NCBI RefSeq assembly: GCF_017876435.1
Contig: NZ_JAGIOA010000001.1
Coordinates: 62,001-126,000 of the forward strand
DNA: 64,000 nt
Direction: 5' to 3'
Origin: Microbacterium phyllosphaerae
GTDB lineage: Bacteria; Actinomycetota; Actinomycetes; Actinomycetales; Microbacteriaceae
Position 1 is the first letter of the stretch. Each line of letters opens with the position of its first letter. Below, in pieces: positions 14,855 to 51,739 of the stretch. The notes below the pieces were generated by a model. That model ran no database searches, was not told the origin of the DNA, and saw only the letters and a program-made list of their open reading frames with translations. Position numbers and translations under genes: made by a program.

Positions 14855-14902
14855 CTGGACGCCACTTGTCATAACAGGTACACTCAACTTGTCATTACAG
14901 GT
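14855..14902 (+). promoter_or_regulatory. Promoter with two ACTTGT-N4-ACAGGT operators
   Basis: Operator 1 is ACTTGTCATAACAGGT (14864-14879) and operator 2 is ACTTGTCATTACAGGT (14887-14902), 23 bp apart. A -10 TACACT at 14879-14884 with CTGGAC 18 bp upstream places operator 1 in the promoter spacer and operator 2 at the transcription start, a repressor layout. The same motif recurs at 24194, 32811 and 51038 and defines a regulon in this window. Confidence 0.8.
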
Positions 14903-14937
14903 TGCGCAGCGCCGCAGCACCCGTACGAGGAGCACCG

Positions 14938-15528
14938 ATGCCCCAGTTCCACACGCCCCCGATCTCGCCGATGGCGATCGCGTTCGACGCCGAGAAGCTC
15001 ACGCTCTCGCCCGAGGGGCCCACCCTGACGCGGCGCATGTCCGACCTCGAGGGCCTGTTCCTCGACGCGGATGCCTGGGCCGCCGCATCCGCCGGCGACA
15101 ACCCCGTGGTCTACACCGTCGTCAGCTCGCCCGTGCCCGAGGTCGACCGCGAACTGCCCCAGTCGATCACGACGATCATGCCCGGCGACACCTCGGGTGA
15201 GCTGTGGATGACCAAGGGCCACCAGCACCCGAACCACCAGGGCGAGATCTACCTGGCGCTGAAGGGTCGCGGCGGGCTGCTCATGTTCGACGGCGAGCGC
15301 ACCGAATGGCTCGACATGCTCCCCGGCACCATCGGCTACATCCCGCCGGGGTGGGCGCACCGCTCGGTGAACACGGGTGACGAGCCCTACGCGTTCCTCG
15401 CGGTGTACCCGGGCGGCGCCGGCCACGACTACGGCTGGGTCCTCGAGCACGGGATGGGCTACCGGGCCTATCGCGCCTCCGAGGGCGTGGACCTGCGCCC
15501 CTATTCCGCGACCCCCTCCGCGGAATAG
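14938..15528 (+). CDS. Cupin-type glucose-6-phosphate isomerase-like sugar isomerase
   Basis: 196 residues. The metal-binding cupin motif GHQHPNHQGEIYLALKGRG and the second motif GTIGYIPPGWAHRSVN match cupin phosphoglucose isomerases, which interconvert aldose and ketose phosphates at a metal site. The ATG at 14938 has CGAGGAG six bases upstream. It is the first gene of a six-gene operon with a sugar kinase, two dehydrogenases and a PTE-like hydrolase. In that context the substrate is probably a different sugar or sugar phosphate from glucose 6-phosphate (inference). Two repressor operators lie in its promoter. Confidence 0.85.
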   Translation: MPQFHTPPISPMAIAFDAEKLTLSPEGPTLTRRMSDLEGLFLDADAWAAASAGDNPVVYTVVSSPVPEVDRELPQSITTIMPGDTSGELWMTKGHQHPNHQGEIYLALKGRGGLLMFDGERTEWLDMLPGTIGYIPPGWAHRSVNTGDEPYAFLAVYPGGAGHDYGWVLEHGMGYRAYRASEGVDLRPYSATPSAE

Positions 15529-15537
15529 GCTCCGGCC

Positions 15538-17040
15538 ATGCTGATCGCGCACGACCTGGGAACGACCGGCAACAAGGCGTCCCTGCACCATGACGACGGC
15601 CGCCTCGTCACCTCTGTCACCGTCCCCTATCCGGCGCACTTCGCCGCGGGCGGCATCGCCGAGCAGGATCCGGCCGATTGGTGGGATGCCGTCGTCGCGG
15701 CGACCCGGCAGCTGATCGCCCGCGCCGGCGTCGGGCCCGAGACCATCGGAGGCCTCGTCGTCAGCGGCCAGATGATGGGCACCGTGCTGCTCGACGGGCA
15801 TGGTGAACCGGTGCGCCCCGCGATCATCTGGGCCGACACCCGCTCGGGCGCGCAGACCCGGGCACTCGAAGAGCGCCTGGGCGCCGAGGACGCGTACCGC
15901 GTCCTCGGCCACCGCCTGAACCCCACCTACTCACTCGAGAAGATCATGTGGGTGCGCGACAACGAACCCGACGTGTGGGCGCGCGTGCGACACTTCTGCG
16001 TCGCAAAGGACTACATCGTCTACCGGCTCACCGGACGACTCGCCACCGAGCGCTCCGACGCGTCGGGCACGAACGCCTACGACCAGCTGCGCGGCACCTG
16101 GTCGGCAGACGTGCTCGCGGCCGCAGGACTCGACGCCGCACTCTTCCCGGAGATCCTCGAATCGACGACCGTCGCAGGATCCCTGACGACCGCGTCGGCG
16201 GATGCCCTGGGGCTCCCGGCATCCGTGCGCGTCGTGATGGGCGGCGGAGACGGACCGCTCGCCGCGGTGGGCTCGGGCATCGTCGCCCCCGAAGACGGCG
16301 CCTACGTGTGCTTGGGCACCTCGTCGTGGATCTCGTTCGCGAGCATCGCTCCGCTGCACGACCCGCAGATGCGCACCATGACCTTCGACAACGTCGTGCC
16401 GGGCTCCTTCGTCCCGACCGCGACCATGCAGGCCGGCGGCGCATCGGTGCAGTGGATCGCCGAGGCGCTCTCTCCCGACCCCGCGCACCCCGACACCGCA
16501 CGGCTGACGGCTGAGGCCGGAGGCGACCTCGACACCGAAGACCTGTACTTCCTGCCCTACCTGCTCGGCGAGCGCTCCCCGCTGTGGGACCCGCACGCCC
16601 GCGGGGCGTTCGTCGGACTCGGCCGCCACCACACCCGCGCGCACCTCACCCGCGCCGTGCTCGAGGGTGTGGCGTACAACCTGCTCACCTGCATCCAGGC
16701 GTTCCGGGAGTCGGGAGCCACGATCGACCGCATCGATGCGGTGGGCGGCGGCGCCCAGAGCGACGCCTGGCTCGGCATCCTCGCCGACGTCTGGGGTGTG
16801 TCGATCCGTCGCCGCACGATCGTCGAAGAGGCCAACAGCCTCGGCGCCGCGGTCACCGGCGCGGTCGGGCTCGGCCTGGCCGACTTCTCGGCAGCCAGGG
16901 CGCTGAGCGAGGTGACGGCGGAGTTCACGCCGGATGCCGGTCGGCACGCCGTGCACGCGCAGCGTCACAGTCGCTTCGTCGACGCCTACGCCGCGCTCGA
17001 GCCGTGGTTCGCCCAGGCCCCCGCCACCCGGGGCGACTGA
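15538..17040 (+). CDS. FGGY-family carbohydrate kinase (xylulokinase-like)
   Basis: 500 residues, normal FGGY length. The N-terminal phosphate loop HDLGTTGNKAS, the ADTRSGAQ substrate segment and the C-terminal GGGAQSDAW ATP-site motif are all present, so it should be active. FGGY kinases phosphorylate ketoses or polyols; the closest style is xylulokinase, but the substrate is not decided by sequence. TAGGCT lies exactly six bases before the ATG, so it may also have its own leaderless start within the operon. It overlaps the next gene by one base. Confidence 0.9.
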   Translation: MLIAHDLGTTGNKASLHHDDGRLVTSVTVPYPAHFAAGGIAEQDPADWWDAVVAATRQLIARAGVGPETIGGLVVSGQMMGTVLLDGHGEPVRPAIIWADTRSGAQTRALEERLGAEDAYRVLGHRLNPTYSLEKIMWVRDNEPDVWARVRHFCVAKDYIVYRLTGRLATERSDASGTNAYDQLRGTWSADVLAAAGLDAALFPEILESTTVAGSLTTASADALGLPASVRVVMGGGDGPLAAVGSGIVAPEDGAYVCLGTSSWISFASIAPLHDPQMRTMTFDNVVPGSFVPTATMQAGGASVQWIAEALSPDPAHPDTARLTAEAGGDLDTEDLYFLPYLLGERSPLWDPHARGAFVGLGRHHTRAHLTRAVLEGVAYNLLTCIQAFRESGATIDRIDAVGGGAQSDAWLGILADVWGVSIRRRTIVEEANSLGAAVTGAVGLGLADFSAARALSEVTAEFTPDAGRHAVHAQRHSRFVDAYAALEPWFAQAPATRGD

Positions 17041-17996
17041 TGGGAGTCATCCTCGCCACCAGCCGCTCGTTCTCGGACGGCGACCTCGACCTCGTGGGCC
17101 GGGCGCACGCCGCCGGCCACGAGATCGTCCGCGGGCCCGCACATCACGGACTCACCGAGCTCGCACCGCTGCTCGCCGCGGCCGAGGGGTGGATCGCGGG
17201 AACCGGCCCCGTCACCGACGAGCACCTCGCCGCCGCGCCGAACCTCCGAATCGTCGCCCGCTACGGGGTCGGCACCGAGGCGGTGGATCTCGATGCGGCG
17301 CTGCGACGCGGCATCCCGGTGACCAACACCCCCGGCGCGAATGCGGATGCCGTCGCCGACCACGCCGTCGGACTCATGCTCGCGGCCCTCCGCTTCATCC
17401 CCGACGGCGACCGCCGCGTGCGCGCCGGCGACTGGGCAATGCGCCGCGGGCGCGAGCTCGGGGCGGCGACGGTCGGCATCGTGGGCTTCGGCCGAATCGG
17501 CCAGGGCGTGGCCCGGCGACTCGGCGGCTTCGGCTCGCGCGTGATCGCCGCCGATCCGTTTCTGCCGGGGGACATCATCGCCGAGCGAGGAGCCGAGCCG
17601 GTCGACCTCGACGAGCTGTTCCGCACCGCCGACCTGATCACCCTGCACGCCCCCGGCGGCCAGACGCTCGTCGATGCGGCGCGGCTCGACGGCATCCGTC
17701 CGGGGATGATCCTGGTGAACACCGCCCGCCCCGACCTCGTCGACGAACGCGCGCTGGCGCGGGCCCTGCGCGACGGACGCCTCGGCGGGTACGCCGCCGA
17801 CACCCTGACCGGCGACACCGCGGCGAGCGCGAGCCCGCTGCTGGCGCCCGATCTCGCCGACCGCGTGACGGTCACCCCGCACCTCGGCGCGCAGACCACG
17901 CAGGCCGTCGACAACATGGGCGCGATGTCGCTCGACGACGTGCTGTCCGTTCTCGCGGGCACGACCCCCGCACACCCCGTCTCTCCCCGACCCTGA
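17040..17996 (+). CDS. D-isomer-specific 2-hydroxyacid dehydrogenase
   Basis: 318 residues. The NAD-binding GFGRIGQGVARRLGGFG and the catalytic set Arg in NTARPDLVDE, an acidic residue, and His in VTVTPHLGAQTT are present. Family members reduce 2-oxo acids or oxidise D-2-hydroxy acids; phosphoglycerate dehydrogenase is the nearest named type, but the ACT regulatory domain is absent. It starts on the last base of the kinase gene. The operon points to oxidation or reduction of a sugar acid (inference). Confidence 0.9.
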   Translation: MGVILATSRSFSDGDLDLVGRAHAAGHEIVRGPAHHGLTELAPLLAAAEGWIAGTGPVTDEHLAAAPNLRIVARYGVGTEAVDLDAALRRGIPVTNTPGANADAVADHAVGLMLAALRFIPDGDRRVRAGDWAMRRGRELGAATVGIVGFGRIGQGVARRLGGFGSRVIAADPFLPGDIIAERGAEPVDLDELFRTADLITLHAPGGQTLVDAARLDGIRPGMILVNTARPDLVDERALARALRDGRLGGYAADTLTGDTAASASPLLAPDLADRVTVTPHLGAQTTQAVDNMGAMSLDDVLSVLAGTTPAHPVSPRP

Positions 17997-18007: not shown

Positions 18008-18964
18008 ATGACCCTCACCGAGACCCCCTCGACTGCCGCGACTCCGGCGACCGGCGGCTACATGGGCTTCATCGGCGTGAGCACCGGCTCGTCGTCGATC
18101 ATGACGGTGTTCCCGAAGTGGGCCGACGTACTGGGTCTTCCGACCGCGAACCTCATCGGGCACGATCTGCCGATGGATGCCACCCCTGAGCAGTACGTGG
18201 CCATGGTCGAGCAGATCCGCGACGACCCCCACCACCGGGGTGCCCTCGTCACGACGCACAAGATGAACGTCTTCGCCGCAGCATCCGACCTCTTCGACGA
18301 GCTCGACCCGTTCGCGGTCTCGTGCTCCGAGATCTCGAGCATCTCGAAGCGCGGCGACCGCCTGATCGGCCGCGCCAAGGATCCGCTCACGGTCGATCTC
18401 GCGCTGAACGACTTCCTGCCCGCCGACCACTTCGCCCGCACGGGAGCCGAGGTGGTGATCCTCGGCGCCGGCGGCTCGGGCACGGCACTCAGCTGGGCAC
18501 TGGCGGAGCGAGCGGATGCTCCGGCGAAGATCACCGTGACCGCCCGCGACGACGAGAAGCTCGACCACCTGCGCGAGGTGCACCGCCAGCACGGCACTCC
18601 CGAGGGGCTGATCACCTACGTGCGCACCGACACGGTGCAGGATGCCGCGACGATCGTCGCAGCGGCACCCACGGGGTCGCTGATCGTGAACGCGACGGGA
18701 CTCGGCAAGGATCGCCCCGGCTCGCCGTTGCCTGACGATGTGGTGTTCCCCGAGGGCGCGTGGGTGTGGGAGTTCAACTACCGCGGCTCGCTGGAGTTCC
18801 TGCATCAGGCCCACGCCCAGGAGGCCGCGCGGGGCCTGCATGTGGTCGACGGCTGGCGCTACTTCATCCACGGCTGGTCGCAGGTCGTCGCCGACGTGTT
18901 CGAGATCGACCTCACCCCCGAGATCGTCGAGCGCCTCGCCGAGGCCGCAGAATCGGCGCGCTGA
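18008..18964 (+). CDS. Divergent shikimate-dehydrogenase-like oxidoreductase
   Basis: 318 residues with the two-domain shikimate dehydrogenase layout: a substrate domain with GVSTGSSSIMTVFPKW, then a Rossmann motif GAGGSGTALSWAL near residue 157. The catalytic Lys is kept in LVTTHKMNV and an Asp in GRAKDPLTVD, but the usual shikimate-binding HSxSPxxHN and NVTxPxK patterns are altered. It therefore probably oxidises a different cyclic or linear polyol. AAGGA lies before the ATG, and the stop overlaps the next start (TGATG). Confidence 0.8.
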   Translation: MTLTETPSTAATPATGGYMGFIGVSTGSSSIMTVFPKWADVLGLPTANLIGHDLPMDATPEQYVAMVEQIRDDPHHRGALVTTHKMNVFAAASDLFDELDPFAVSCSEISSISKRGDRLIGRAKDPLTVDLALNDFLPADHFARTGAEVVILGAGGSGTALSWALAERADAPAKITVTARDDEKLDHLREVHRQHGTPEGLITYVRTDTVQDAATIVAAAPTGSLIVNATGLGKDRPGSPLPDDVVFPEGAWVWEFNYRGSLEFLHQAHAQEAARGLHVVDGWRYFIHGWSQVVADVFEIDLTPEIVERLAEAAESAR

Positions 18965-19932
18965 TGCCCGTCGTCCGGACGGTGCTCGGCGACATCGATC
19001 CGACACAGCTCGGGTCGACGAACTATCACGAGCACCTCTTCCAGATCTCACCCCTGCTCCCGGGTGACGAACTCGACGACGAAGCTCTTTCAGGTCGAGA
19101 GGCCGCACTGCTGAAGGCCAGCGGCTTCGAGGCCATGATCGACGCCACGCCATTCGGGCTCGGCCGCGACCCCGAAGCGGTCGCCCGCATCAGCGCGGGC
19201 ACCGGGATGCACGTCGTCGCGACCACAGGCCGCCATCGCGAGGCCCACTACGGCGCCGATCACCCGCTGCAGGCGTGGAGCGGCGACCGCCTCGCGGCAC
19301 TGTTCATCGCCGAGGTGACGCGCGGGATGCCGGTCGACGATGCGCTCGTGTTCGAGGGACCGGACGTTCCGCGCGCCGCCTCCCCCGATGGCGCCCCTGT
19401 TCGGGCAGGCATGCTCAAGGCCGGAGTCGGCTACTGGAGCATCACCCCCTTCGAGCACACGACGCTGCTCGCGGTCGCCGAGGCTCATCGTGCGACCGGG
19501 GCGCCGGTGATGGTGCACCTGGAGTTCTGCACGGCGGCCCACGAGGTGCTCGATCTGCTCGAGGCGGCCGGCGTCGCATCCGATCGGGTGGTGCTCGCAC
19601 ATGCCGACCGCGACCCGGATGCCGGACTGCATGCGTCCCTCGCCGAACGCGGTGCCTACTTGGGATACGACGGCTTCGCCCGACCGCGCACCCGATCGGA
19701 TGCCGAGCTGCTCGCCCTCACCGAGAAGGTCGTGGCCTTCGGCGCCGCGGACCGCGTGCTGCTCGGCGGCGACGTCGCCCGCCGCACCCGCTACATCTCC
19801 TATGGCGGCATGCCCGGCCTCGCCTACCTCGGCGAGCGCTACCTGCCGCGCCTGCGCTCCGCCGTCGGCGACGACGCCGTGGAGCGGATGCTCGTCGCGA
19901 ACCCCGCACGCCTGCTCACCCTGTCGTCCTGA
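18964..19932 (+). CDS. Phosphotriesterase-family metal hydrolase, probable sugar-lactonase
   Basis: 322 residues of the amidohydrolase superfamily. The binuclear site is visible: HxH in NYHEHLF near residue 20, bridging Lys in GMLKAGVGYW, His in VMVHLEF and VLAHADRDPD, and Asp in LLGGDVARR. Several members next to sugar genes hydrolyse phosphorylated sugar lactones (established for the family), which would suit an operon with a kinase and dehydrogenases. Organophosphate hydrolysis is not implied. It starts within the stop of the preceding gene. Confidence 0.85.
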   Translation: MPVVRTVLGDIDPTQLGSTNYHEHLFQISPLLPGDELDDEALSGREAALLKASGFEAMIDATPFGLGRDPEAVARISAGTGMHVVATTGRHREAHYGADHPLQAWSGDRLAALFIAEVTRGMPVDDALVFEGPDVPRAASPDGAPVRAGMLKAGVGYWSITPFEHTTLLAVAEAHRATGAPVMVHLEFCTAAHEVLDLLEAAGVASDRVVLAHADRDPDAGLHASLAERGAYLGYDGFARPRTRSDAELLALTEKVVAFGAADRVLLGGDVARRTRYISYGGMPGLAYLGERYLPRLRSAVGDDAVERMLVANPARLLTLSS

Positions 19933-19972: not shown

Positions 19973-20269
19973 ATGGCCGAGCCGACCATCCTTCACGCCG
20001 TGTTCACCGCACGCCCCGCGAAGGGCGACGAGGTGGCCGCACTGCTGAGCGATTTCGCCGAGGTCGTACGGGCCGAAGAGGGCAACGTCGTGTTCGATGC
20101 GACGCGCCTCGTCGATGACCCCGACCGCTTCTTCGTCTACGAGGTCTATCGCGACGAAGCGGCATTCCAGGCGCACATCGCAGCTCCGGCCGGCGTGCCC
20201 TTCAACGAGGCACTGCAGCAGCTGATCGTCGAGCCGTCGTCGATCCTGACCTTCCTCCGCCGCGTCTGA
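19973..20269 (+). CDS. ABM-fold (antibiotic biosynthesis monooxygenase-like) small protein
   Basis: 98 residues of the dimeric ferredoxin-like ABM fold, with the typical RFFVYEVYRDEAAFQAHIAA segment. Such proteins act as cofactor-free monooxygenases or as mutarotase-like partners of sugar pathways (compare the similar fold of rhamnose mutarotase). GAGGAG lies five bases before the ATG. Being last in the sugar operon, a mutarotase or accessory isomerase role is as likely as oxygenation. Confidence 0.82.
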   Translation: MAEPTILHAVFTARPAKGDEVAALLSDFAEVVRAEEGNVVFDATRLVDDPDRFFVYEVYRDEAAFQAHIAAPAGVPFNEALQQLIVEPSSILTFLRRV

Positions 20270-20471: not shown

Positions 20472-21470
20472 TCACTGGTAGAGAACCGCGGCGATCTTCT
20501 CGTCCTCGATGTTCGTGCTGTCGTACCAGTACGAACCGGTGTCGTAGAACTCGTCGACGTCGTCGCCGTTGGCGGCGTCGTACGCCGCCTGGACGACCTG
20601 CTCGCCGATGCCGATCGGGTCCTGCGTGATGGCGCCGGCCATCGTGCCGTCCTTGATCGCGTTGATCTGCGCGGCTCCCGAGTCGAAGCCGACGATCGTG
20701 ATCTTGCCCTTCTCGAGACCGAGCTCGTTCACGGCGTTCACGACGCCGATGGCCGAGCCCTCGTTGGTTCCGTAGATGCCCTTGAGGTCGGGGTGGGCGG
20801 CGATCAGCGTCTTCGCGATGTCGGCCGACTTCAGGTGGTCGCCGTCACCGTACTGGATGTCGACGATCTTGATGTCGGGGAAGTCCGCCTCCATCTTCTC
20901 GACGAAGCCGTCACGACGCTCGACGCCGGTCGAGTTGATGTTCGAGTGACCGACGATGGCGACCTCGCCCTTGCCGCCGATCAGCTCGGCCATGTGCTCT
21001 GCCGCGAGCGCGCCGGCGACCTTGCTGTCGGTCGCCGAGAGGCTCAGGCCCACGTCGCCGTCGCAGGGGGCGTCGAAGTAGACGACGGGGATGTCCTTGG
21101 CCTTGGCCTGCTCGAGCGGGGCGACGCACGCCTCGGGGTCGAGGGCGGCGTAGGCGATGGCATCCGGGTTCTTGTCGATCGCGGTGGTCAGCATCTCGAG
21201 CTGCTGGGCGATCTCGGTCTCGGCCGCGGGGCCCTCGAACGTGATCTTCACGCCGAGCTCCTCGGCCTTCTGCTCCGCGCCCTTCTTGACGGCCTGCCAG
21301 AACTGGTGCTGGAAGCCCTTCGAGACGAGCGCGATGTACATCTCGCCGTCGCCACTGCCTCCGTCGCCGCTGCCTTCTTCGATGACGTCACCGCCGCCTG
21401 CGCAGCCCGCGAAGACGAGGGCGGATGCGGCCACGAGTGCCGCGAATGCGGTCTTCTTGCCGAATTTCAT
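20472..21470 (-). CDS. Ribose-type ABC substrate-binding lipoprotein
   Basis: 332 residues. A signal peptide with lipobox LVFAGC (Cys23) is followed by an acidic Gly/Ser linker and a class B sugar-binding domain of the RbsB/XylF type (Peripla_BP_4). The ATG at 21470 has TGGAG six bases upstream. It is the third gene of an rbsA-rbsC-rbsB-type operon. The family binds ribose, allose, xylose and related sugars; the ligand here should be the inducer sugar of the shared regulon, which is unknown. Confidence 0.9.
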   Translation of the reverse strand: MKFGKKTAFAALVAASALVFAGCAGGGDVIEEGSGDGGSGDGEMYIALVSKGFQHQFWQAVKKGAEQKAEELGVKITFEGPAAETEIAQQLEMLTTAIDKNPDAIAYAALDPEACVAPLEQAKAKDIPVVYFDAPCDGDVGLSLSATDSKVAGALAAEHMAELIGGKGEVAIVGHSNINSTGVERRDGFVEKMEADFPDIKIVDIQYGDGDHLKSADIAKTLIAAHPDLKGIYGTNEGSAIGVVNAVNELGLEKGKITIVGFDSGAAQINAIKDGTMAGAITQDPIGIGEQVVQAAYDAANGDDVDEFYDTGSYWYDSTNIEDEKIAAVLYQ

Positions 21471-21520
21471 GGAAACTCCATTGTTCTCTGTGTGGTGGTG
21501 GGGGGTGTAGATCTGTGGGA

Positions 21521-22555
21521 TCAGGTGCGCTGGCGGTTGCGCAGCGAGTCGAGGAACACGGCCAGCAGCACGACGATGCCGACGACGATGTTCTGCCATT
21601 CGGACTGGATCGACATGATGCGCAGGCCGTTGACGAGCACGCTCATGATCAGCGCACCGATCACGGTGCCGAGGATCGAGCCTCGTCCGCCGAGCAGCGA
21701 GGTTCCGCCGATGATGACTGCGGCGATCGCCTGCAGCTCGTAGCCGGTGCCGATCTGCGGCTGAGCCGAGTCGAGTCGGGCGGCGATGACGATGCCCGCG
21801 ATGCCGGTGAAGGCGCCGGCGAACATGTAGATGAGGATCGTCCAGCGCCGGGTGTTCACACCCGAGAGGCGCGTGGCCTCCTCGTTCGAGCCGATCGCGA
21901 AGGTGTAGCGGCCGAGAAGCGTCTTCGACAGCACCAGCCAGGCGATGATCGCGGCCACGGCGGTGATCAGCACGGCGTTCGGGATGCCGGGGATGATCAC
22001 GCCGAGCGCGATCTTCTTGAAGTCGGGGGCCGACGTCGAGAAGTAGATCGGCGAGACGTTCGAGATGACGAGGGCGAGGCCTCCGGCGATCATCATCATC
22101 GCGAGGGTCGCGATGAACGGGGGCAGTCGGAGGAACGTGATGTTGATGCCGTTCACGAGCCCCATCAGGACGCCCGTGAGCACACCGCCGATCACGCCGA
22201 CCCAGACCGGGAGTCCCATGTTCGTCACGAACACACCCGTCATCACGGCGCAGAGCGCCATGCCGGTGCCGATCGACAGGTCGATGCCGCCGGTGATGAT
22301 GACGAAGGTCGTGCCGAGGGCCAGGATGCCGATGACCGCGGTCGACAGCAGCACCGTGGCGATGTTGCTGAAGGTGAAGAAGGCGGGGCTGGCGATCGAG
22401 AAGAAGACCACGAGCACGATCAGCGTGCCGAAGGCGAGCGACTGCTGGAGCTGGCGCCGGAGGAACCCGCCGATGTCGCGCTTGTCGGTGTTCTCATCGA
22501 CCGCTGTCTGGATGATCGTCGTCGTCGACGATCCCTGCTGCTGCGGGGTGCTCAT
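21521..22555 (-). CDS. Ribose-type ABC permease
   Basis: 344 residues with eight to ten membrane helices of the RbsC/branched-chain permease family. The family mark GGIDLSIGTGMALCAV and the IAAVIIGGTSLLGGRGS motif near the C-terminus are clear. It overlaps the ATPase gene by one base. It carries the sugar delivered by the downstream-encoded lipoprotein. Confidence 0.94.
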   Translation of the reverse strand: MSTPQQQGSSTTTIIQTAVDENTDKRDIGGFLRRQLQQSLAFGTLIVLVVFFSIASPAFFTFSNIATVLLSTAVIGILALGTTFVIITGGIDLSIGTGMALCAVMTGVFVTNMGLPVWVGVIGGVLTGVLMGLVNGINITFLRLPPFIATLAMMMIAGGLALVISNVSPIYFSTSAPDFKKIALGVIIPGIPNAVLITAVAAIIAWLVLSKTLLGRYTFAIGSNEEATRLSGVNTRRWTILIYMFAGAFTGIAGIVIAARLDSAQPQIGTGYELQAIAAVIIGGTSLLGGRGSILGTVIGALIMSVLVNGLRIMSIQSEWQNIVVGIVVLLAVFLDSLRNRQRT

Positions 22556-24057
22556 CAGTCTTCCTCCCCGTGGGCTGCGAGTTGCATGATCTTCTCCTGG
22601 CTGGCTTCTTCGTTGCGGAGCGTCCCGGTGATGCGACCGTTCGCGAAGACCGCGATGCGGTTCGCGACGCGGAGGATCTCCGGGAGCTCCGATGAGATGA
22701 CGATGATGGATTTGCCCTGATCAGCGAGCTGCTGCATCAGGCGGTAGATCTCCTCTTTCGCGCCGACGTCGATGCCTCGGGTCGGTTCGTCGAAGATGAG
22801 GATGTCGCAGTCGCGCATCAGCCACCGGGCGATGACGACCTTCTGCTGGTTCCCTCCGGAGAGGAGCTTCACGATCTGGTTCACGGAGGGCGTCTTCACC
22901 CTCAGCTGCTGCACGTACTCCTTGGTGCGGTTCTTCGCCTTGTTGTCGCCCATCCAGCCGATGCCGTTGGCGTACGAGCCGAGCGACGCGAGCACGGTGT
23001 TGAACGTGACGTCCTGCTCGAGCATGAGACCCAGCAGCTTGCGGTCCTCCGAGAGGTAGCCGAGGCCGTGCTTCACGGCATCCGCCGGCTGTCCGATGCG
23101 CACCTGCTGTCCGCTGATCGCGATCGAGCCTCCGTCGCGATGATCCGCCCCGATGACCGCTCGAGCGGTCTCGGTGCGCCCCGCGCCCATGAGTCCGGCG
23201 AAGCCGAGGATCTCGCCCCGGTGCAGCTGGAACGACACGTCTTTCAGGAGGGTCTTGGTCGAGAGCCCCTGCACGTCGAGCACGATCGGGTCGTTGATGT
23301 GATCGCGGGCTTCGGGGCGGGTGCCCTCGTCGATCACTCGTCCGACCATCATCTCGATGATCTTCGGGACGCTGACCTCCGACTTGTCCAGTGATCCGAT
23401 GTATGTGCCGTCTCGGAGCACCGTGACCCGGTCGGCGAGGCGTCGCAGCTCGTCCATGCGGTGCGAGATGTAGACGATGCCGGTGCCGGATGCCCGCAGC
23501 TGCTCGATGAGCACGAACAGGGTCTCGGTCTCGGAGTCGGTGAGCGCCGACGTCGGCTCGTCCATGATGAGCACCTTGGCGTTGAACGACAGCGCCTTCG
23601 CGATCTCGACCATCTGCTGCTCGGCCACGGTGAGCTCGCCGACGAGCTGGCGCGGATTCAACCGGATGCCGAGGCGCTGCAGCAGCTCGGCGGTCTGCTT
23701 GTTCAGCTTGCCCTCCGAGAGGAACGGGCCGGTCGTGGGCTCACGCCCCACGAAGATGTTCTGCGCGACGGTGAGGTCGGGCATCAGGTTGAGCTCCTGG
23801 TGGATGATCGTGATTCCGAGCTGCTGCGCCTGCAGCGGGCTGGTGAGTTCGACCTCCGCGCCCTCGAACGTGATCGTTCCCTCGTCCTTGGTGTAGATCC
23901 CGGACAGGATCTTCATCAGAGTGGACTTGCCCGCGCCGTTCTCGCCCACGAGCACGAGCACCTCACCGGCCCGCACCTCGAGGTGCACGTCCTTGAGAGC
24001 CTGCACACCGGGGAATCCCTTGCTGATCCCCTCGACTCTGAGAATGGGGTCACTCAT
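22555..24057 (-). CDS. Ribose-type ABC ATPase with two nucleotide-binding domains
   Basis: 500 residues, two ABC domains in tandem as in RbsA. The first domain has Walker A GENGAGKST near residue 38 and Walker B VLIMDEPTSALT; the second has signature LSGGNQQKV and Walker B ILIFDEPTRGID. The second Walker A is degenerate (GLMGAGRTE), normal for this family. It is first in the operon. A regulon operator lies at 24194-24209, 137 bp upstream of its start. Confidence 0.95.
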   Translation of the reverse strand: MSDPILRVEGISKGFPGVQALKDVHLEVRAGEVLVLVGENGAGKSTLMKILSGIYTKDEGTITFEGAEVELTSPLQAQQLGITIIHQELNLMPDLTVAQNIFVGREPTTGPFLSEGKLNKQTAELLQRLGIRLNPRQLVGELTVAEQQMVEIAKALSFNAKVLIMDEPTSALTDSETETLFVLIEQLRASGTGIVYISHRMDELRRLADRVTVLRDGTYIGSLDKSEVSVPKIIEMMVGRVIDEGTRPEARDHINDPIVLDVQGLSTKTLLKDVSFQLHRGEILGFAGLMGAGRTETARAVIGADHRDGGSIAISGQQVRIGQPADAVKHGLGYLSEDRKLLGLMLEQDVTFNTVLASLGSYANGIGWMGDNKAKNRTKEYVQQLRVKTPSVNQIVKLLSGGNQQKVVIARWLMRDCDILIFDEPTRGIDVGAKEEIYRLMQQLADQGKSIIVISSELPEILRVANRIAVFANGRITGTLRNEEASQEKIMQLAAHGEED

Positions 24058-24193
24058 GTGCTCACCTGCTTCCTTGAAGGTCGTTATCCGCTGAGTCCGG
24101 TCGGGTCCGGAAACATCGGATCAATTCTGCAACCTGCGCCCCGCCCTGCGCAAGTTGTATCTAAATGTAACTAAGACTCTCCGGGAAGGGAAG

Positions 24194-24209
24194 ACCTGTA
24201 ATAACAAGT
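24194..24209 (-). promoter_or_regulatory. Regulon operator upstream of the ribose-type ABC operon
   Basis: ACCTGTAATAACAAGT, on the minus strand ACTTGTTATTACAGGT, matches the operators at 14864, 14887 and 51038. The gap 24058-24255 also contains an AT-rich stretch at about 24155-24175 with an imperfect inverted repeat that may hold the promoter. Confidence 0.75.
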
Positions 24210-24255: not shown

Positions 24256-25125
24256 TCAGTGCAGCCGGATGGAGTCGACGGCGACGAGCTTGTCGCGGAT
24301 GTACGCGTTCGCGTGCGCTCCGAGCTCGGCGTTGTCGGTCCAGAGGTTGCGCCAGATGCCGAGCATCCGACTGAGGTCGGGGGCCACCACTGCCGACGAG
24401 AACGACTCGAACACGATCGGACCGTCGTAGCCGATGCGACCCAGCGCCTTGAAGAAGTTGTCGAAGTCGACGGTTCCCGTGCCGAGATACCCGCGGTGAC
24501 TCTCGCCGATGTGCACGTATCGGAGGGCCGGTGCGGCGTCGAGGACCGGCGCGAACATATCCGACTCCTCGATGTTCATGTGGTACGTGTCGAGGTGGAT
24601 GCCGACGTTCGGCCGATCGACCTGTGCGAGGTAGGCGAGCGCCTGCCGCGCCGTGTTCAGCACGTTCGTCTCGTAGCGGTTGACGACCTCGAGCGAGACC
24701 GACACTCCGCGTTCGGCGGCGTGGTCGGCGACGCGAGCGATCGTGCGACGACTGCTCTCGAGCCCTTCGGGCGTCACCGGATCCATGTACTTCTGCATCG
24801 CGCTGTAGATCACGCCGCAGAAGTGCTGTCCGCCGAGATCGGCGAGCACATCGACCGCCTTGAGCAGCAGCGCTTCGCCGGCGGCGACGACCGCCGGGTC
24901 CGAGCTCGTGACGTCGGTCGCGCCCGACAGGCCGAGCGAGGCGCTGACCGCGAGGTCGTGCTCTTCGAGGGCATCCTTCGCCGCGGCGACGTCGAACGAG
25001 AAGGGATCCATCAGGGGGAACTCGATCAGGTCGAATCCCGCCGCCTTCGTCTTCTCGACCGACAGGCGGATGCCGTCGGCATCGAAGCGTCCGGTCCAGA
25101 CGAGCCCGTGGCATCCGATGTTCAT
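24256..25125 (-). CDS. Ketose 3-epimerase (D-tagatose/D-psicose 3-epimerase family)
   Basis: 289 residues, TIM barrel. The Mn-site residues of ketose 3-epimerases are visible: Glu in SLEVVNRYET, Asp and His in HLDTYHMNIEE, His/Glu in HIGESHRGYLG, and the final Glu in IVFESFSS. HLDTYHMNIEE is nearly identical to the hallmark of psicose/tagatose epimerases. It swaps the C3 configuration of a free ketose. The ATG at 25125 is chosen over an upstream start because family members begin here. It is divergent from a LacI gene, with two operators between, and lies just upstream of the ABC importer, which may supply its substrate. Confidence 0.88.
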   Translation of the reverse strand: MNIGCHGLVWTGRFDADGIRLSVEKTKAAGFDLIEFPLMDPFSFDVAAAKDALEEHDLAVSASLGLSGATDVTSSDPAVVAAGEALLLKAVDVLADLGGQHFCGVIYSAMQKYMDPVTPEGLESSRRTIARVADHAAERGVSVSLEVVNRYETNVLNTARQALAYLAQVDRPNVGIHLDTYHMNIEESDMFAPVLDAAPALRYVHIGESHRGYLGTGTVDFDNFFKALGRIGYDGPIVFESFSSAVVAPDLSRMLGIWRNLWTDNAELGAHANAYIRDKLVAVDSIRLH

Positions 25126-26356: not shown

Positions 26357-27322
26357 TCAGGCGGGGATCAGCCCCTCCGCCGCGAGCTCATCCCACAGCG
26401 CACCGGGGATCTCGAGAGCCGCGTATTCGGCGTTCTGGGTCAGCTGCGTCGGTCGGCTGCCCCCGACGACGACCGAGCGCACGACGTCGGACTGCAGCGG
26501 GAACTGGATCGCGGCCGCGGGCAGCGGCACGTCGTGCTCGGCGCACACCCGTGCGATGCGCAGCAGCCGCTCCCACAGCTCGTCCGGCAACTGCCCGTAC
26601 TCGTACCGACCGTCACGACGCGGCGCATTCGACGCGAGCAGCCCCGAGTTGAAGACGGATGCCGCGACGATGCCCGTGCCGGTCTCCCGGCACGCCGGCA
26701 GCACGTCGGCCGCGGCCGGCTGTTCGAGCAGCGTGTAGCGCCCCGCGACCATGATCAGATCGAGGTCCGCGGATCGCACCGAGGCGGCGAGCGCGTCCGA
26801 CACCATCGACCCGATCCCGACCGCGGCGACCTGGCCATCGGATCGCAGCTGCTCCAGAGCCGGCAGGGCTTCGGCGAGCGCGAGATCGAGGTCGTGCCGT
26901 TCGGGGTCGTGCAGGTAGAGCAGATCGATGCGCTCGATGCCCAGGCGCTCGCGCGACTCGTCGAGGCTCGTGCGGATGCCGTCGGCCGAGAAGTCCCACA
27001 CACGCTGCAGGTCGTCGGGCACGTGGAAGTCGTTCGCGGTGTCGAGGCCGCCGTCATGCTCGGGGTTCGGCCGCAGCAGCCGCCCGACCTTGGTCGACAG
27101 CACGAACTCGTCGCGCGGCTTGGTCTGAAGGAACGCTCCGAGGCGGCGCTCCGAGAGCCCGAGCCCGTAGTGCGGAGCCGTGTCGAAGTAGCGGATGCCG
27201 CTGTCCCACGCAGCCTCCAGCACGGCCCACGACTCGTCGTCTGTGAGCGGGCGGAAGAGGTTGCCGACGTTCGCGGCCCCGTACCCGAGCGTCGGAACCG
27301 TCAGAGGTTCAGGCACCGACAT
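26357..27322 (-). CDS. Aldo/keto reductase, probable L-fucose 1-dehydrogenase
   Basis: 321 residues. It has the AKR tetrad features: Asp in [19 protein letters not shown] with Tyr, Lys in LSTKVGRLL, and a His in [25 protein letters not shown] and [17 protein letters not shown] are typical of D-threo-aldose/L-fucose 1-dehydrogenases. It would oxidise L-fucose to L-fuconolactone, step one of the pathway encoded around it. The start at 27322 overlaps the end of the dehydratase gene by 14 bp; an earlier ATG at 27352 is possible. Confidence 0.85.
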
Positions 27323-32129: not shown

Positions 32130-32792
32130 TCAGGCCCCGAGCCGCACCATCGCCGCGTCGAACTCCGCGGCCGAGCTGTCGCTGACCTCGTGGAAAAGCA
32201 TCTGCTCGATCACGTCGGGCGCGGCCGTGAAGTACGGCACTCCGGCGAGCCGCAGGCCCGTGATGTCGTCGGGCGATCGCAGGCTCGCGGCGAGCACGTT
32301 CGACCCGCTCCCTGCGCAGACCTCCTGCATCCGCGCGATCACGGCATCGCCGTCGATGCCGGCATCCCGCATCCGTCCGAGGTAGGGGGCGATGTACTGC
32401 GCACCGATCAAGGCGCACGCGAGCGCCTGCGCGACCGAGTACACGGCGGTGACGAGCACGGTCGCGCCGTCGGCCACCAGCGCGGATGCCGCGGCGAAGC
32501 CGTCACGTGTCGCCGGAACCTTCACGGCCACGCGGTCGCCGAGCGCGCGGATGCCCTCGGCGTTGCGGAGGAAGGATGCGGTGTCGCCGCCCCACGTCTG
32601 GAAGAAGATCTCGCGGGCACCCTCGTCTGACCAGCGGGCGTACAGGTCGGGGATCTCGGCGGCGGTGCGGCCGCCCCGCTCGAGGATCGTGGGGTTCGTC
32701 GTGACTCCGTGCACGACTCCCGCGGTCAGGAGGGACGAGACGCGGTCGACGTCCGCACTGTCGACGTAGAGACGGGGGGCCAGCGCGGTCAT
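32130..32792 (-). CDS. Transaldolase-family aldolase (fructose-6-phosphate aldolase-like)
   Basis: 220 residues, the short form of the transaldolase family typical of F6P aldolase rather than the 320-residue transaldolases. LYVDSADVDRV and GVTTNPTILERGG mark the N-terminus, and the Schiff-base Lys is in VAVKVPATRDG. Such enzymes split or form ketose phosphates with a dihydroxyacetone or glycolaldehyde unit. The ATG at 32792 has AAGGAG five bases upstream. It is divergent from ribokinase, with regulon operators between, so it belongs to the shared sugar regulon. Confidence 0.88.
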   Translation of the reverse strand: MTALAPRLYVDSADVDRVSSLLTAGVVHGVTTNPTILERGGRTAAEIPDLYARWSDEGAREIFFQTWGGDTASFLRNAEGIRALGDRVAVKVPATRDGFAAASALVADGATVLVTAVYSVAQALACALIGAQYIAPYLGRMRDAGIDGDAVIARMQEVCAGSGSNVLAASLRSPDDITGLRLAGVPYFTAAPDVIEQMLFHEVSDSSAAEFDAAMVRLGA

Positions 32793-32810: not shown

Positions 32811-32853
32811 ACCTGTCGTTACAGGTTCGGATTCGGCTAATGTAATGACAGCC
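32811..32853. promoter_or_regulatory. Regulon operators in the aldolase/ribokinase divergent promoter
   Basis: ACCTGTCGTTACAGGT (32811-32826) matches the regulon motif, and a second core TGTAATGACA (32841-32850) is the reverse complement of the core of the 14887 site. The pair lies between divergent genes, 30 bp apart, and could control both. Confidence 0.75.
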
Positions 32854-32899: not shown

Positions 32900-33850
32900 A
32901 TGACAGCCGCCACCTCGCCCGATCGCACCGGCGTCGTCATCGTCGGCAGCGTGACCGCAGACGTGACGACCTTCTCGACCCGGCTCCCCGCCCGCGGCGA
33001 GACCATCCTCGGAGACGAGTTCACCCTCATGCTCGGCGGCAAGGGCGCGAACCAGGCCGTCGCCGCCGGGCGGTCCGGAGCACGCACGAGCTTCGTCGGA
33101 TGCGTCGGAGACGACCTCTTCCACGACCTCGTCGTCGACGGGCTGAGCGAGGCCGGTGTCGATCTCACCCACCTGCGCACGGTGCCCGGGCCGACCGGCA
33201 TCGCGCACATCCGGGTCGACGCCTCGGCCCAGAACGACATCGTCATGGTTCCCCTCGCGAACGCCGCGCTCAGCACCGAGCAGATCGACGCGGCGCTGGC
33301 CGCCCTCGCGCCGACCACGTCGGTGCTGCTCACCCAGCTGGAGACCCCCTCCGCTCTCACGGCGCACATCACAGCCCGGGGCCGTGAGCACGGCATGACC
33401 GTCATCCTCGACCCCGCCCCCGCGGCACCGCTCGCCGACGAGGTCTGGTCGAGCATCGACATCGTCACCCCGAACGAGACCGAGGCCTCGGTGCTGAGCG
33501 GCATCGAAGTGACGGATGCCGCGTCCGCCGCGCTCGCCGGACGCTGGTTCCTCGACCGCGGGGTCGGCGCGGCCGTGATCACGCTCGCCGGTCAGGGGTC
33601 GTGCGTCGTGACGGCAGACGGAGCATCCGTCGTCCCTCCGTTCCCCGTCGAGGCCGTCGACACGACCGCCGCCGGCGACGCCTACGCCGGCTACCTCGGC
33701 GCGGCGCTCGCGAACGGACGGTCGTTGACCGATGCCGTGCGCGTGGCGACCGCGGCCGGAGCCCTCGCCGTGACGAAGCAGGGCGCATCGCCGAGCCTGC
33801 CGCTTCGCGCCGAGGTCGAGGCCTTCCTGGCCGCCCGAGAAGCCCACTGA
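32900..33850 (+). CDS. rbsK: Ribokinase, PfkB family
   Basis: 316 residues. PfkB features are GGKGANQAVAAGRSG near the N-terminus and the ATP/anion-hole motif DTTAAGDAYAGYL, where the usual GAGD is AAGD. It phosphorylates ribose or a related sugar. The ATG at 32900 has AGGAG four bases upstream; an ATG at 32861 would begin in the promoter. It leads an operon with RbsD and a GntR regulator, and the RbsD partner favours a ribose-like pyranose substrate. Confidence 0.9.
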   Translation: MTAATSPDRTGVVIVGSVTADVTTFSTRLPARGETILGDEFTLMLGGKGANQAVAAGRSGARTSFVGCVGDDLFHDLVVDGLSEAGVDLTHLRTVPGPTGIAHIRVDASAQNDIVMVPLANAALSTEQIDAALAALAPTTSVLLTQLETPSALTAHITARGREHGMTVILDPAPAAPLADEVWSSIDIVTPNETEASVLSGIEVTDAASAALAGRWFLDRGVGAAVITLAGQGSCVVTADGASVVPPFPVEAVDTTAAGDAYAGYLGAALANGRSLTDAVRVATAAGALAVTKQGASPSLPLRAEVEAFLAAREAH

Positions 33851-33867: not shown

Positions 33868-34272
33868 ATGCGCAAGACAGCGACGACCATCAATCCGGCC
33901 CTCTCCCGGGTGATCAGCGAGACCGGGCACACCGATCTGCTGGTGGTCACCGACGCGGGGCTGCCGATTCCGCCGGGGTCCGAGCGCATCGACCTCGCCT
34001 ACCGCCCCGGTGCTCCCGCGTTCTTCGACGTGCTCGACACCGTGCTCGCCGAGCTCGTCGTCGAGGGTGCGACAGTGTCGGAGGAGGTCGCCGAGAAGAG
34101 TCCCGAGGTGCTGGCCGCGCTGCGCGAGCGCTTCGCCGATCAGGACTTCGAGATCGAGCTGATCCCCCACGTCGAGTTCAAGAAGCTCACGCATTCGGCG
34201 CGGGCGTTCGTGCGCTCGGGAGAGTTCACCCCCTACGCCAACGTGATCCTGCACGCGGGAGTGGCGTACTGA
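33868..34272 (+). CDS. rbsD: D-ribose pyranase
   Basis: 134 residues of the RbsD/FucU mutarotase family, which speed the pyranose-furanose change of ribose before phosphorylation. The catalytic His is in ISETGHTDLLVVTDAG near residue 20, and the C-terminal signature SGEFTPYANVILHAGV is intact. GAGGAG lies upstream of the ATG. It is in the same operon as ribokinase. Confidence 0.94.
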   Translation: MRKTATTINPALSRVISETGHTDLLVVTDAGLPIPPGSERIDLAYRPGAPAFFDVLDTVLAELVVEGATVSEEVAEKSPEVLAALRERFADQDFEIELIPHVEFKKLTHSARAFVRSGEFTPYANVILHAGVAY

Positions 34273-34273: not shown

Positions 34274-35077
34274 ATGAACGACACGATCGACCGTCATTCC
34301 GCGGCGCCCATGTACGACCAGCTGCGCCAGCTGATCGTCGACGGCATCACCCGCGACGGCCTGCAGCCGGGCGACCCGCTGCCCGGCGAGCATCGCCTGT
34401 GCGAGCGCTACGGCATCTCGCGCACCGTGGTGCGTCAGGCACTGGCCCAGCTCGAGCACGAGGGACTCGTCGAGCGGGTGAAAGGCAAGGGAACGTTCGT
34501 CTCGCGTCCCCGCACGAGCGAGAGCCTCGTGCACACCCTGATCGGCCTCTACGACGATGTCGAACGCCGCGGCGGGCACGTGCACAGCGACGTGCTCCGT
34601 CATGAGCTGACCGTCGCCGACGACGAGATCGCATCGGCCCTCGAGGTCGAGGCCGGCGCCCCCGTGGTCGTGCTCGAACGCCTGCGTCACGTCGACGGCG
34701 AGCCCTGGTCGCTCTCCACGACCTGGATGCCGGATGCCGTCGGCACCGTCACGCTCGACGTCGACCTGTCCGAGGCGTCGCTCTACCGGGTGCTCGCCGA
34801 CCACGGCATCGTCGCGACCAGCGGCGTGCGCTCGGCCGAGGCGACCGTCGCGACGCACGAGCAGGCGCAGCACCTCGGCGTCAGCGCCGGCTCTGCCCTG
34901 CTGCGGTTGCGCAGCGTGAGCCGGGCGGCCGACGGCATCCCGATCGAGTACTTCGTCGCGCATCATCGCGGCGACCGCTCGCGCTTCGAGTTCCAGCTGC
35001 AGCAGGAGCAGTCGCAGGCGTCGCTGCTGCACGTCGACGGCGACGGCGGCACGTCGCGCGCCGGCACCGTCCGCTGA
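34274..35077 (+). CDS. GntR/HutC-type regulator with UTRA domain, likely master of the sugar regulon
   Basis: 267 residues: N-terminal GntR winged helix (YGISRTVVRQALAQLEHEGLV) and a C-terminal UTRA ligand domain (VVLERLRHVDGEPWSLSTTW). UTRA regulators typically bind sugar phosphates. It follows rbsD by one base and is the only UTRA-type protein seen in the window. The operator ACTTGT-N4-ACAGGT lies upstream of its operon and at three other promoters, so it is the best candidate to bind them; this is inferred. Confidence 0.9.
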   Translation: MNDTIDRHSAAPMYDQLRQLIVDGITRDGLQPGDPLPGEHRLCERYGISRTVVRQALAQLEHEGLVERVKGKGTFVSRPRTSESLVHTLIGLYDDVERRGGHVHSDVLRHELTVADDEIASALEVEAGAPVVVLERLRHVDGEPWSLSTTWMPDAVGTVTLDVDLSEASLYRVLADHGIVATSGVRSAEATVATHEQAQHLGVSAGSALLRLRSVSRAADGIPIEYFVAHHRGDRSRFEFQLQQEQSQASLLHVDGDGGTSRAGTVR

Positions 35078-42809: not shown

Positions 42810-42812
42810 TCC

Positions 42813-50420: not shown

Positions 50421-50490
50421 ACCTCCAGGGTACGCGGTGCCGGGTGGGAAGGCCCTGGGGCGGGGGCACACGCGTCCCTAGACTGAGCGA

Positions 50491-51045
50491 ATGGACCTCT
50501 TCATCGCCGTCGGCAGCGTCATCGTGGTCATCGGCCTGGGTGCGGTGATCGTCGCCGCGGCGTTGAGGTCGATGCGCCCCAAGGCTCCGGAGGCCCAGGC
50601 CTACACACCCTCGCCGACGATGGCGCGGTCCGTCGCCTCCACCTCCACGTCGACCGCGTCGGCCTCGCAGCTCACGCCCGCGGCGATCGCCGAGATCGAC
50701 CGCCTGGTCGCCGCAGACAAGAAGATCCACGCCATCAAGCTCTACCGCGAGAACACGGGGGTCGGACTGAAAGAGGCGAAGGACCGGATCGATCACTGGT
50801 CGGTCAGCACCACGGCTCCTCATCTCGCGGCCGTCTCGAACGCCTCGGCCGCGTACTCGTCGATCACCGCCACGCCGTCGTCGGTGCGTGGCGCGCTCCC
50901 GGCATCCGTCGCGACAGAGGTCGACCGGCTCGTCGCGGCCGATCAGAAGATCCACGCGATCAAGCTCGTCCGCGAGCACACGGGCCTCGGGCTCAAGGAG
51001 TCGAAGGACGTCGTCGAGGCCTGGCCGCACCCGCGTCACTTGTAA
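50491..51045 (+). CDS. Membrane-anchored protein with two L7/L12 C-terminal-like repeats
   Basis: 184 residues. An N-terminal helix ([20 protein letters not shown]) is followed by a Ser/Thr/Ala linker and two copies of a motif like the ribosomal L7/L12 C-terminal domain: [20 protein letters not shown] near residue 76 and [20 protein letters not shown] near 153. In L7/L12 this helix pair binds translation factors. Here the tethering is unusual and the partner unknown. TAGACT lies six bases before the ATG (leaderless). Confidence 0.85.
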
Positions 51046-51053
51046 TTACAGGT
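51038..51053 (+). promoter_or_regulatory. Regulon operator before the KDPG-type aldolase
   Basis: ACTTGTAATTACAGGT matches the regulon motif and straddles the stop of the preceding gene. TTGTAA inside it (51040-51045) can serve as a -35 box, with GAGAAT (51064-51069) as the -10 after an 18-bp spacer. Confidence 0.75.
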
Positions 51054-51100
51054 TGCGGTCGGGGAGAATGGGGACGAACCCCCACTCGAAGGAGCCCTCG

Positions 51101-51739
51101 ATGCCCGACCGTCTCTCCCGCGCCCGCGCCACCGGCGTGCTCGCTGTGCTGCGCGCACCGTCGCCCGAGCTCGCTCTCGAGGCCTCCGAGGCGATCATCC
51201 GCGGAGGAGTGACCGGCATCGAGGTGACCTTCTCGACCCCCGATGCCCCCGCGGTGATCCGCGAGCTCGTCGCCCGCCACGGCGATGCCGCCTACATCGG
51301 CGCCGGCACGGTCACGACCATCGAGCAGGCCTCCCTCGCCACGGATGCCGGTGCGGAGTTCCTCGTGAGCCCCGGGACGCTCCCCACGCTGACCCGCGCG
51401 ATGCTCGACACCGGACGCGTCGTGATGACCGGCGCCATGACCCCGACCGAGGTCATGGGCGCACTCGAGCTCGGCGTCGACGTGGTCAAGATCTTCCCCG
51501 CCTCCCTCGGCGGCCCCTCGTACCTCGGCGCGCTGCGCGGGCCGTTCCCGGATGCGCCGCTGATGCCGACCGGTGGAGTCAGCCCCGACAACCTCGCCGA
51601 CTGGTTCCGCGCCGGAGCCGTCGCGGTGGGTGCGGGCGGCGACCTCGCCAACGGCGCTTCGCTCAAGGCATCCGACTGGGCCGACATCGAACAGCGTTCG
51701 GCCCGCTTCGCCGCAGCTCTCGCAGCGACCCGCGCCTGA
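51101..51739 (+). CDS. KDPG/KHG-type aldolase
   Basis: 212 residues of the Eda family, class I aldolase. The Schiff-base Lys is in VDVVKIFPASLGG, the catalytic Glu in GVTGIEVTFSTPDA, and the phosphate-binding MPTGGVSPDN is intact. It splits 2-keto-3-deoxy-6-phospho sugar acids (or 4-hydroxy-2-oxoglutarate) into pyruvate and an aldehyde. GAAGGAG lies upstream of the ATG. A regulon operator overlaps its promoter, placing it in the distributed sugar pathway, where a phosphorylated keto-deoxy acid would be the natural substrate. Confidence 0.9.
   Translation: MPDRLSRARATGVLAVLRAPSPELALEASEAIIRGGVTGIEVTFSTPDAPAVIRELVARHGDAAYIGAGTVTTIEQASLATDAGAEFLVSPGTLPTLTRAMLDTGRVVMTGAMTPTEVMGALELGVDVVKIFPASLGGPSYLGALRGPFPDAPLMPTGGVSPDNLADWFRAGAVAVGAGGDLANGASLKASDWADIEQRSARFAAALAATRA

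Follow-up and report, generated by a model that had tools for sequence, protein, structure and literature searches.

The window analyzed here is a 64-kb stretch of DNA (contig positions 62001-126000 of G000, the single-contig genome of 3.73 Mb of Microbacterium phyllosphaerae) in which four groups of sugar genes are accompanied by the inverted repeat ACYTGT-N4-ACARGT. By comparing these genes and repeats with those of related genomes, we found it likely that they form a single catabolic regulon controlled by a GntR-type protein, with a predicted oxidative route through phosphorylated sugars. The repeat is present in five copies, at 14864 (ACTTGTCATAACAGGT), 14887 (ACTTGTCATTACAGGT), 24194 (ACCTGTAATAACAAGT, reading ACTTGTTATTACAGGT on the minus strand), 32811 (ACCTGTCGTTACAGGT) and 51038 (ACTTGTAATTACAGGT). 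An initial annotation of this DNA had claimed these five sites and an additional core at 32841, and had linked through them a six-gene operon, a sugar importer, an aldolase-ribokinase-RbsD region and a 2-keto-3-deoxy-6-phosphogluconate (KDPG)-type aldolase; all of the coordinates were confirmed, and the gene contents of the four linked units are as it described them:

14864-14879 and 14887-14902 (no strand): operators O1 and O2, starts 23 bp apart, 5' of the six-gene operon
14938..15528 (+): gene 1, cupin phosphosugar isomerase of the glucose-6-phosphate isomerase (GPI) family PF06560 (glucose-6-phosphate isomerase 4LUK, E 4e-41)
15538..17040 (+): FGGY sugar kinase, xylulokinase-like (TIGR01312, 397.1 bits, cut-off 380.25)
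17040..17996 (+): D-isomer 2-hydroxyacid dehydrogenase (HADH), phosphoglycerate-dehydrogenase-like
18008..18964 (+): shikimate-dehydrogenase-like oxidoreductase (SDHL), with the shikimate/quinate dehydrogenase fold
18964..19932 (+): phosphotriesterase-family protein (PTE), putative phospho-lactonase, nearest solved chain 3PNZ
19973..20269 (+): gene 6, small ABM-family protein, weakly LsrG-like
20472..21470 (-): ribose/allose/rhamnose-type substrate-binding protein (searched as 20472-21482)
21521..22555 (-): ATP-binding cassette (ABC) permease, a conserved partner gene
22555..24057 (-): RbsA-type ABC ATPase, first gene of the importer operon
24194..24209 (-): operator O3, 136 bp from the start of the ABC importer operon
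32130..32792 (-): fructose-6-phosphate aldolase (FSA) / TalC-like transaldolase
32811..32826 (no strand): operator O4, between the divergent FSA and ribokinase-family genes
32841..32850 (no strand): second operator core TGTAATGACA, beside O4
32900..33850 (+): ribokinase-family kinase (RBK), RbsK-like (293.3 bits, cut-off 299.65)
33868..34272 (+): RbsD D-ribose pyranase (PRK11797, 153.1 bits, cut-off 93)
34274..35077 (+): GntR/HutC-type regulator with a UTRA domain, the proposed repressor, in its own target operon
51038..51053 (+): operator O5, before the KDPG-type aldolase gene and overlapping the stop of the upstream frame (which ends at 51045)
51101..51739 (+): KDPG/KHG-type aldolase (searched from 51104; TIGR01182, 187.9 bits, cut-off 156.05)

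The palindromic form has five exact matches in the whole genome, all of them inside the window (the reversed control pattern has 0), in agreement with the earlier remark that such sites were noticed in promoters of carbohydrate genes and not elsewhere. With up to two mismatches allowed, there were 11 strand-matches in the window versus 0.96 expected and a maximum of 4 over 100 shuffles. A one-strand form with one mismatch occurs at two other places in the genome, 1283147, within a frame that looks by eye like xylose isomerase, and 3051964, which neither of the two frames picked there includes. A matrix built from the five sites gives them scores of 24.6-30.6, the next-best score in the window being 11.1, and each site scored by the matrix of the other four reaches 22.3-29.2. 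The idea that the sites are shared by coincidence or structure, without a common regulator, retains next to no probability, being contradicted by these shuffle and genome controls and also by the promoter conservation and the co-occurrence with GntR described below; a chance origin was rejected on the shuffle and whole-genome controls.

The GntR/UTRA protein at 34274, which the initial annotation regarded as the natural candidate regulator, retained that position. It carries an N-terminal GntR winged helix (PF00392, 70 bits, cut-off 27) and a C-terminal UTRA domain (PF07702, 119.6 bits, cut-off 23.8). Among 59 Microbacterium genomes, an ortholog of at least 77% identity is found in 11, and the operator is present in all 11 of these versus 6 of the 48 genomes without such an ortholog, where it occurs as one site each (hypergeometric value 4.4e-8, for genomes that are related to each other). 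The 11 GntR genomes hold 5, 4, 4, 3, 3, 4, 1, 2, 4, 3 and 4 sites (37 in total), 33 of which lie near SDHL, GntR or KDPG genes. Twelve of the 59 have an SDHL ortholog with 79% identity or more, namely the same 11 genomes and G228. The KDPG gene lies away from the operon in 11 genomes, with a best upstream site of 8.4-31.1 that exceeds the background of 11.1 in 10 of them.

Some operator matches lie apart from these genes. G227 (L211:2471) and G237 (L212:2470) have the site ACCTGTCATCACAGGT before an aldo/keto reductase gene (by eye), far from the cluster, and this reductase is possibly a further regulon target in those species. Two other outlying matches are in G200 C3 and G239 C27.

To place the operator-linked genes in context, we compared their arrangement in relatives. 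A search of 199 genomes of the family for SDHL gave a match in 40 and a strong match (at least 45% identity) in 25, from which 20 stretches of up to 20 kb were fetched (the window's own and four others being left out). Eleven of these 20 loci (L038-L048) hold close SDHL orthologs of 60-68% identity, and the remaining nine have parts of the core and a less closely related SDHL. In all 11 close-ortholog loci, the cupin, FGGY, HADH, SDHL and PTE genes are grouped; the importer is found at high identity in 10, ribokinase in nine and FSA in six, and a relaxed operator pattern lies 5' of the cupin gene in seven. The GntR gene is in the fetched stretch of 10 of the 11, in eight of them no more than ~200 bp from the cupin gene. 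In 10 of the 11, the KDPG aldolase gene, tied to the rest of the window by its operator alone, sits inside the operon between HADH and SDHL, as would be expected under the claim of one regulon made in the initial annotation. We favor a single regulon because the operator-linked genes mostly form one cluster in relatives. The conserved cluster appears to have been split in Microbacterium, the aldolase gene keeping its operator on moving; the case suggests that operators retained by relocated genes can reveal a scattered regulon.

A scan of species genomes extended this comparison to at least 591 pattern stretches, at least 580 of which are confirmed to encode SDHL relatives, and the best 80 (L058-L137) were mapped. 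The nearest named match is Microbacterium sp. Leaf159 (94%), and the nearest 27 of the 80 loci (L058-L084) bear Microbacterium names. In Microbacterium sp. 8M (L080), sites upstream of the operon and of the importer and in the FSA-ribokinase interval all fall within ~13 kb, and the KDPG aldolase gene is in the operon, 3' of PTE. Several phyla share the core set, consisting of the FGGY kinase, cupin, SDHL, HADH, KDPG-type aldolase and a putative lactonase resembling PTE or UlaG; a UlaG-like metallo-beta-lactamase-type protein (MBL) replaces PTE in 13 of 62 loci.

Within L058-L137, sites above background precede the cupin gene in 30/32 cases, the ATPase in 28/40, FSA in 4/6, RBK in 5/10 and FGGY in 19/50 (the loci whose operon starts at FGGY). 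They also precede the D-psicose-3-epimerase-like gene in 7/33 (in some divergent from the ATPase) and the binding protein in 4/42; none was found before the permease (0/41), HADH (0/50), PTE (0/57), the upstream hydrolase gene (0/11) or the LacI-family gene (0/19). The absence of genome-wide enrichment at sugar genes, which the initial annotation had named as contrary to its proposal, was not seen. Pairs of the O1/O2 type are spaced 22-23 bp in seven of eight cases, and the identical O4 16-mer recurs in 7 of 11 relatives' loci, all seven of which keep TAATGTAATGACAG with the second core, as the window does; the search pattern behind these two comparisons holds TGT and ACA constant, which builds in the conservation of those letters. 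In 13 of 16 further actinobacterial loci, a TGT-N4-ACA palindrome lies before a cupin, GntR, FGGY, binding-protein or HADH gene (background 0.021 per 320 bp), and in 7 of the 16 it is of the TCCTGT...ACAGG(A/C) type (Actinomadura, Saccharopolyspora, Plantactinospora and a Nocardioidaceae metagenome-assembled genome (MAG)).

These promoter counts also bear on a different assignment, in which the operator belongs not to GntR but to the LacI-family regulator encoded at ~25340-26341, beside the epimerase gene. LacI operators are also palindromic, 19 of 41 importer loci hold a LacI gene at 60% identity or more and all 19 have a site in the ABC promoter, and some clusters in other genera have LacI genes of lower identity (31-44%) nearby. 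In 9 of the 41, however, the site is present without any LacI gene of at least 60% identity in the fetched stretch, and the LacI gene's own promoter carries the site in none of the 19 loci, on which grounds LacI was rejected as the regulator. The GntR gene, moreover, adjoins the operon in 8 of the 11 related loci, and the inverted TGT-N4-ACA spacing matches the HutC-type NagR site as given in PMC4333415. We consider control by LacI very unlikely.

The NagR base contacts described in the same paper (Arg48 to G-4, Arg38 to G-5 and Gly69 to G-7; PMC4333415) give a further view of GntR as the regulator. At the corresponding places, mapped by spacing, the window GntR has Arg50, His40 and Gly71, and the operators of the window read G-4, T-5 and C-7 at all five sites; His40 is conserved in 11 of 11 GntR orthologs of at least 77% identity. 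The fit of contact residues to the operator is suggestive.

Several observations weigh against a GntR regulon as drawn here. In three loci that have the operator (L045, L046, L104), the GntR protein, a more distant one, carries Leu instead of His at the Arg38 place, other such proteins vary, and the operator has C, not G, at -7, so the residue match can be suggestive only. Six of the 48 genomes without the GntR ortholog nevertheless carry a site (one of them, the 77% complete G228, a single site on its SDHL contig), and 4 of the 37 sites in GntR genomes lie elsewhere than near SDHL, GntR or KDPG genes. G164 has the cluster and a GntR ortholog of 59% identity with 0 sites of the exact pattern; L096 (M. 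suaedae, apparently the same record as G164) has ACTTGTAATTACAACT before its cupin gene. The KDPG site of G220 is below background (8.4 versus 11.1), and the site is weak or absent before the importer in 12 of 40 loci (11 non-Microbacterium and M. suaedae L096) and before RBK in 5 of 10. The matrix and patterns were derived from the window, so near relatives are not independent and the agreement at -5 to -3 is in part a product of the search. Taken together, we regard the regulon and its proposed GntR regulator as well supported by comparison; sequence comparison likewise supports the operators, the membership of the regulon, the linkage to GntR, the conserved gene set and the absence of Edd discussed below.

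The importer promoter additionally contains a second element, TACATTTAGATACAACT (window 24153-24171, minus strand), between O3 and the importer start, which is possibly another factor's site. The pattern TACATTNRGNTACAACT is present as one copy each in 42 of 248 loci, and it or a close variant also occurs in importer promoters without an above-background O3 (L086, L087, L091, L097).

Features of the individual proteins indicate what the regulon may do. The cupin protein keeps, in an alignment read by eye, an H-x-H, E, H motif that we take to bind the metal. The FGGY kinase passes the TIGR01312 xylulokinase cut-off and misses another xylulokinase model (PRK15027, 255 bits versus a cut-off of 912); its xylulokinase-like substrate assignment is putative. 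SDHL has invariant K85 and D125, which correspond in position to the catalytic pair of AroE; identity with AroE itself was rejected (TIGR00507, 37.0 bits versus a cut-off of 200.2), and two other loci of the genome match this model better, at 150 and 127 bits, also under 200.2. The substrate-binding protein falls short of the RbsB model (94.7 bits versus 337), and its nearest solved chains are moderate relatives that do not decide the substrate. The putative KDPG-type aldolase scores above the Eda cut-off and keeps the sequence context of one conserved Lys, presumably the Schiff-base Lys.

Repression, effector, substrate and reaction order are what we infer, as follows. The GntR protein would bind the five sites and, without effector, repress four promoter regions: those of the six-gene operon, the ABC importer, the FSA gene with the ribokinase-RbsD-GntR unit divergent from it, and the KDPG-type aldolase, thereby regulating itself through the ribokinase-RbsD-GntR unit; by analogy with its family, the effector is probably a phosphorylated sugar. 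The importer would take up a ribose- or allose-like sugar, the FGGY kinase would yield a ketose phosphate and the cupin isomerase an aldose phosphate, which SDHL would oxidize to a phospho-lactone. The lactone would be opened to an aldonate phosphate by PTE, or elsewhere by a UlaG-like enzyme, and the 2-hydroxyacid dehydrogenase would convert this to a 2-keto acid, from which the KDPG-type aldolase would release a C3 keto acid and a triose phosphate with no dehydratase step. A ribose branch would be served by ribokinase-RbsD together with the TalC-like enzyme. We offer this order of reactions tentatively. The steps given to SDHL and the 2-hydroxyacid dehydrogenase are guesses, and the route faces further difficulties: normal substrates of KDPG-type aldolases are 2-keto-3-deoxy acids, and a precedent for cleavage of a 3-hydroxy-2-keto acid was not found in the open-licence literature searched. 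Eleven of 62 loci show neither lactonase (four are shorter than 7 kb, six are long without a lactonase, and L099 has PTE matches missed by the frame step), and the mutual exclusivity of PTE and MBL mostly tracks phylum.

The aldolase leaves room for a second route under the same regulator, resembling the Entner-Doudoroff pathway, in which an external dehydratase supplies a 2-keto-3-deoxy acid phosphate and HADH acts on another intermediate. This is possible at a similarly tentative level: the aldolase score above the Eda cut-off and its kept Lys context fit it, Edd-model matches of 195-261 bits exist in 12 of 12 genomes (below cut-off, and taken as IlvD-type enzymes), Marinovum carries a dihydroxyacid/phosphogluconate-dehydratase gene in its next unit, and 11 of 62 loci contain the sugar-acid dehydratase FucD, within an L-fucose-type group. 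Yet Edd exceeds the TIGR01196 cut-off in 0 of 12 genomes (2 of 14 control genomes pass), which led us to reject membership in the Entner-Doudoroff pathway itself, FucD promoters are without the operator in 19 loci, and no other dehydratase was seen among the 45 largest neighbor families, judged by eye.

The ABM gene, present in 14 of the 27 Microbacterium loci, raises the further idea that the core handles phosphorylated diketones as in the autoinducer-2 (AI-2) Lsr system, with SDHL oxidizing a ketose-phosphate ring alcohol and ABM isomerizing the diketone like LsrG. LsrK-, LsrG- and LsrB/A-like matches among the window proteins and the SDHL fold of 5-ketofructose reductase would suit it. The Lsr models, however, all fall far under their cut-offs (LsrK 172/528, LsrG 32/135, LsrB 73/384, LsrA 435/586 bits), for which Lsr membership was rejected; ABM is absent beside PTE in 13 of the 27 loci (two cut short or rearranged) and not seen in most other genera, and the lactonase slot is given no role. 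We judge this idea improbable.

Neighboring genes were recorded alongside the regulon. A D-psicose-3-epimerase-like gene (window 24256-25125, minus strand; 166.8 bits versus a cut-off of 300) is divergent from the LacI-family gene (25340-26341, plus strand), and the pair is conserved beside the importer. Window 26357-32110 holds a non-phosphorylative L-fucose-type group (by eye; NCBIfam matches under cut-off) with an aldo/keto reductase, a sugar-acid dehydratase, an FAH-type hydrolase (28740-29600), an amidohydrolase and a FadR-type GntR gene at 31433. Although it lies within the 37 kb spanned by the operators, this group has no operator, and in L058-L137 no above-background site precedes its genes (aldo/keto reductase 0/24, FucD 0/19, FadR 0/6), so it was rejected as a regulon member. 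In 8 of 62 loci, one of them from an Anaerolineae MAG, the SDHL cluster has a gene for a FucI-like isomerase of ~546 aa nearby (coordinates include L136:11790-13442, L085:12992-14632 and L104:16008-17645); in G000 the isomerase gene is at C1:210802-212430. It was found in 12 of 12 Microbacterium genomes searched; since it is also present in 14 of 47 other sampled genomes and absent from the incomplete, SDHL-bearing G228, its tie to the cluster as a missing upstream enzyme is weak. An L-cysteine desulfhydrase Cds1-like gene lies at window 36166-37224 (585.9 bits versus a cut-off of 600).

The initial annotation proposed these genes as a candidate undescribed system, consistent with our finding no description of this gene set in the open-licence PubMed Central literature searched. 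What is novel is which genes are combined and not how they are controlled. Judged from gene content, the predicted pathway is conserved and widespread: at least 580 stretches encode an SDHL relative, so the module is not confined to one strain. SDHL matches 7,919 of 7,994 database proteins scored at E <=1e-30, and among the 120 matches listed those with names are called shikimate dehydrogenase or its family; if the proposal is true, many relatives so named are misannotated enzymes of one sugar pathway. A more general and rather speculative version would be a widespread dehydratase-free route in which a KDPG-type aldolase converts 2-keto-aldonate phosphate to hydroxypyruvate and triose phosphate, SDHL acts as aldose-phosphate dehydrogenase, PTE and UlaG-like proteins are interchangeable phospho-lactonases, and Actinobacteria have a dedicated GntR/UTRA repressor. 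The operator set provides a direct handle for identifying the substrate.

Among known proteins, the nearest solved relative of the window PTE is 3PNZ, which we take to be Lmo2620, a phospho-furanose lactonase of a type whose model (NF045706) PTE does not reach (only 116 bits versus 630). UlaG (2WYL) is a solved, weak relative of the MBL that takes the place of PTE (E 2.4e-7, not its best match), and SDHL has 19% identity to the Gluconobacter 5-ketofructose reductase (7COK/7COL), which acts in a different process from the proposed SDHL route. Among known systems, Lsr shares an FGGY kinase, an ABM protein and a ribose-type ABC importer with the window, and differs in that all of its models scored on window proteins are below cut-off (LsrF and LsrR were not searched for). 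The NagR/DasR regulons of GntR/HutC regulators (dre sites) are alike in the GntR-plus-UTRA regulator and a plausible sugar-phosphate effector. The NagR site GTGGTCTAGACCAC has the same inverted spacing as the window operator, and G-4 and T-3 are common to both (PMC4333415); the window operator has T at -5 and C at -7, not G, its regulator has His at the Arg38 place, and its targets are not amino-sugar genes. With the Entner-Doudoroff pathway (Zwf, Pgl, Edd, Eda), the window shares putative phospho-lactone hydrolysis and a KDPG-type aldolase, whereas Edd over cut-off is lacking in the 12 genomes, the isomerase, dehydrogenase and lactonase come from other families, and a 2-hydroxyacid dehydrogenase and an FGGY kinase are added. 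Finally, the rbs operon (RbsDACBK) resembles the window in placing RbsD, a ribokinase-like kinase and an RbsA-type importer under one proposed regulator; the rbs regulator RbsR is of the LacI type, whereas the window has a GntR/UTRA regulator, an importer in a separate unit and an extra oxidative core.

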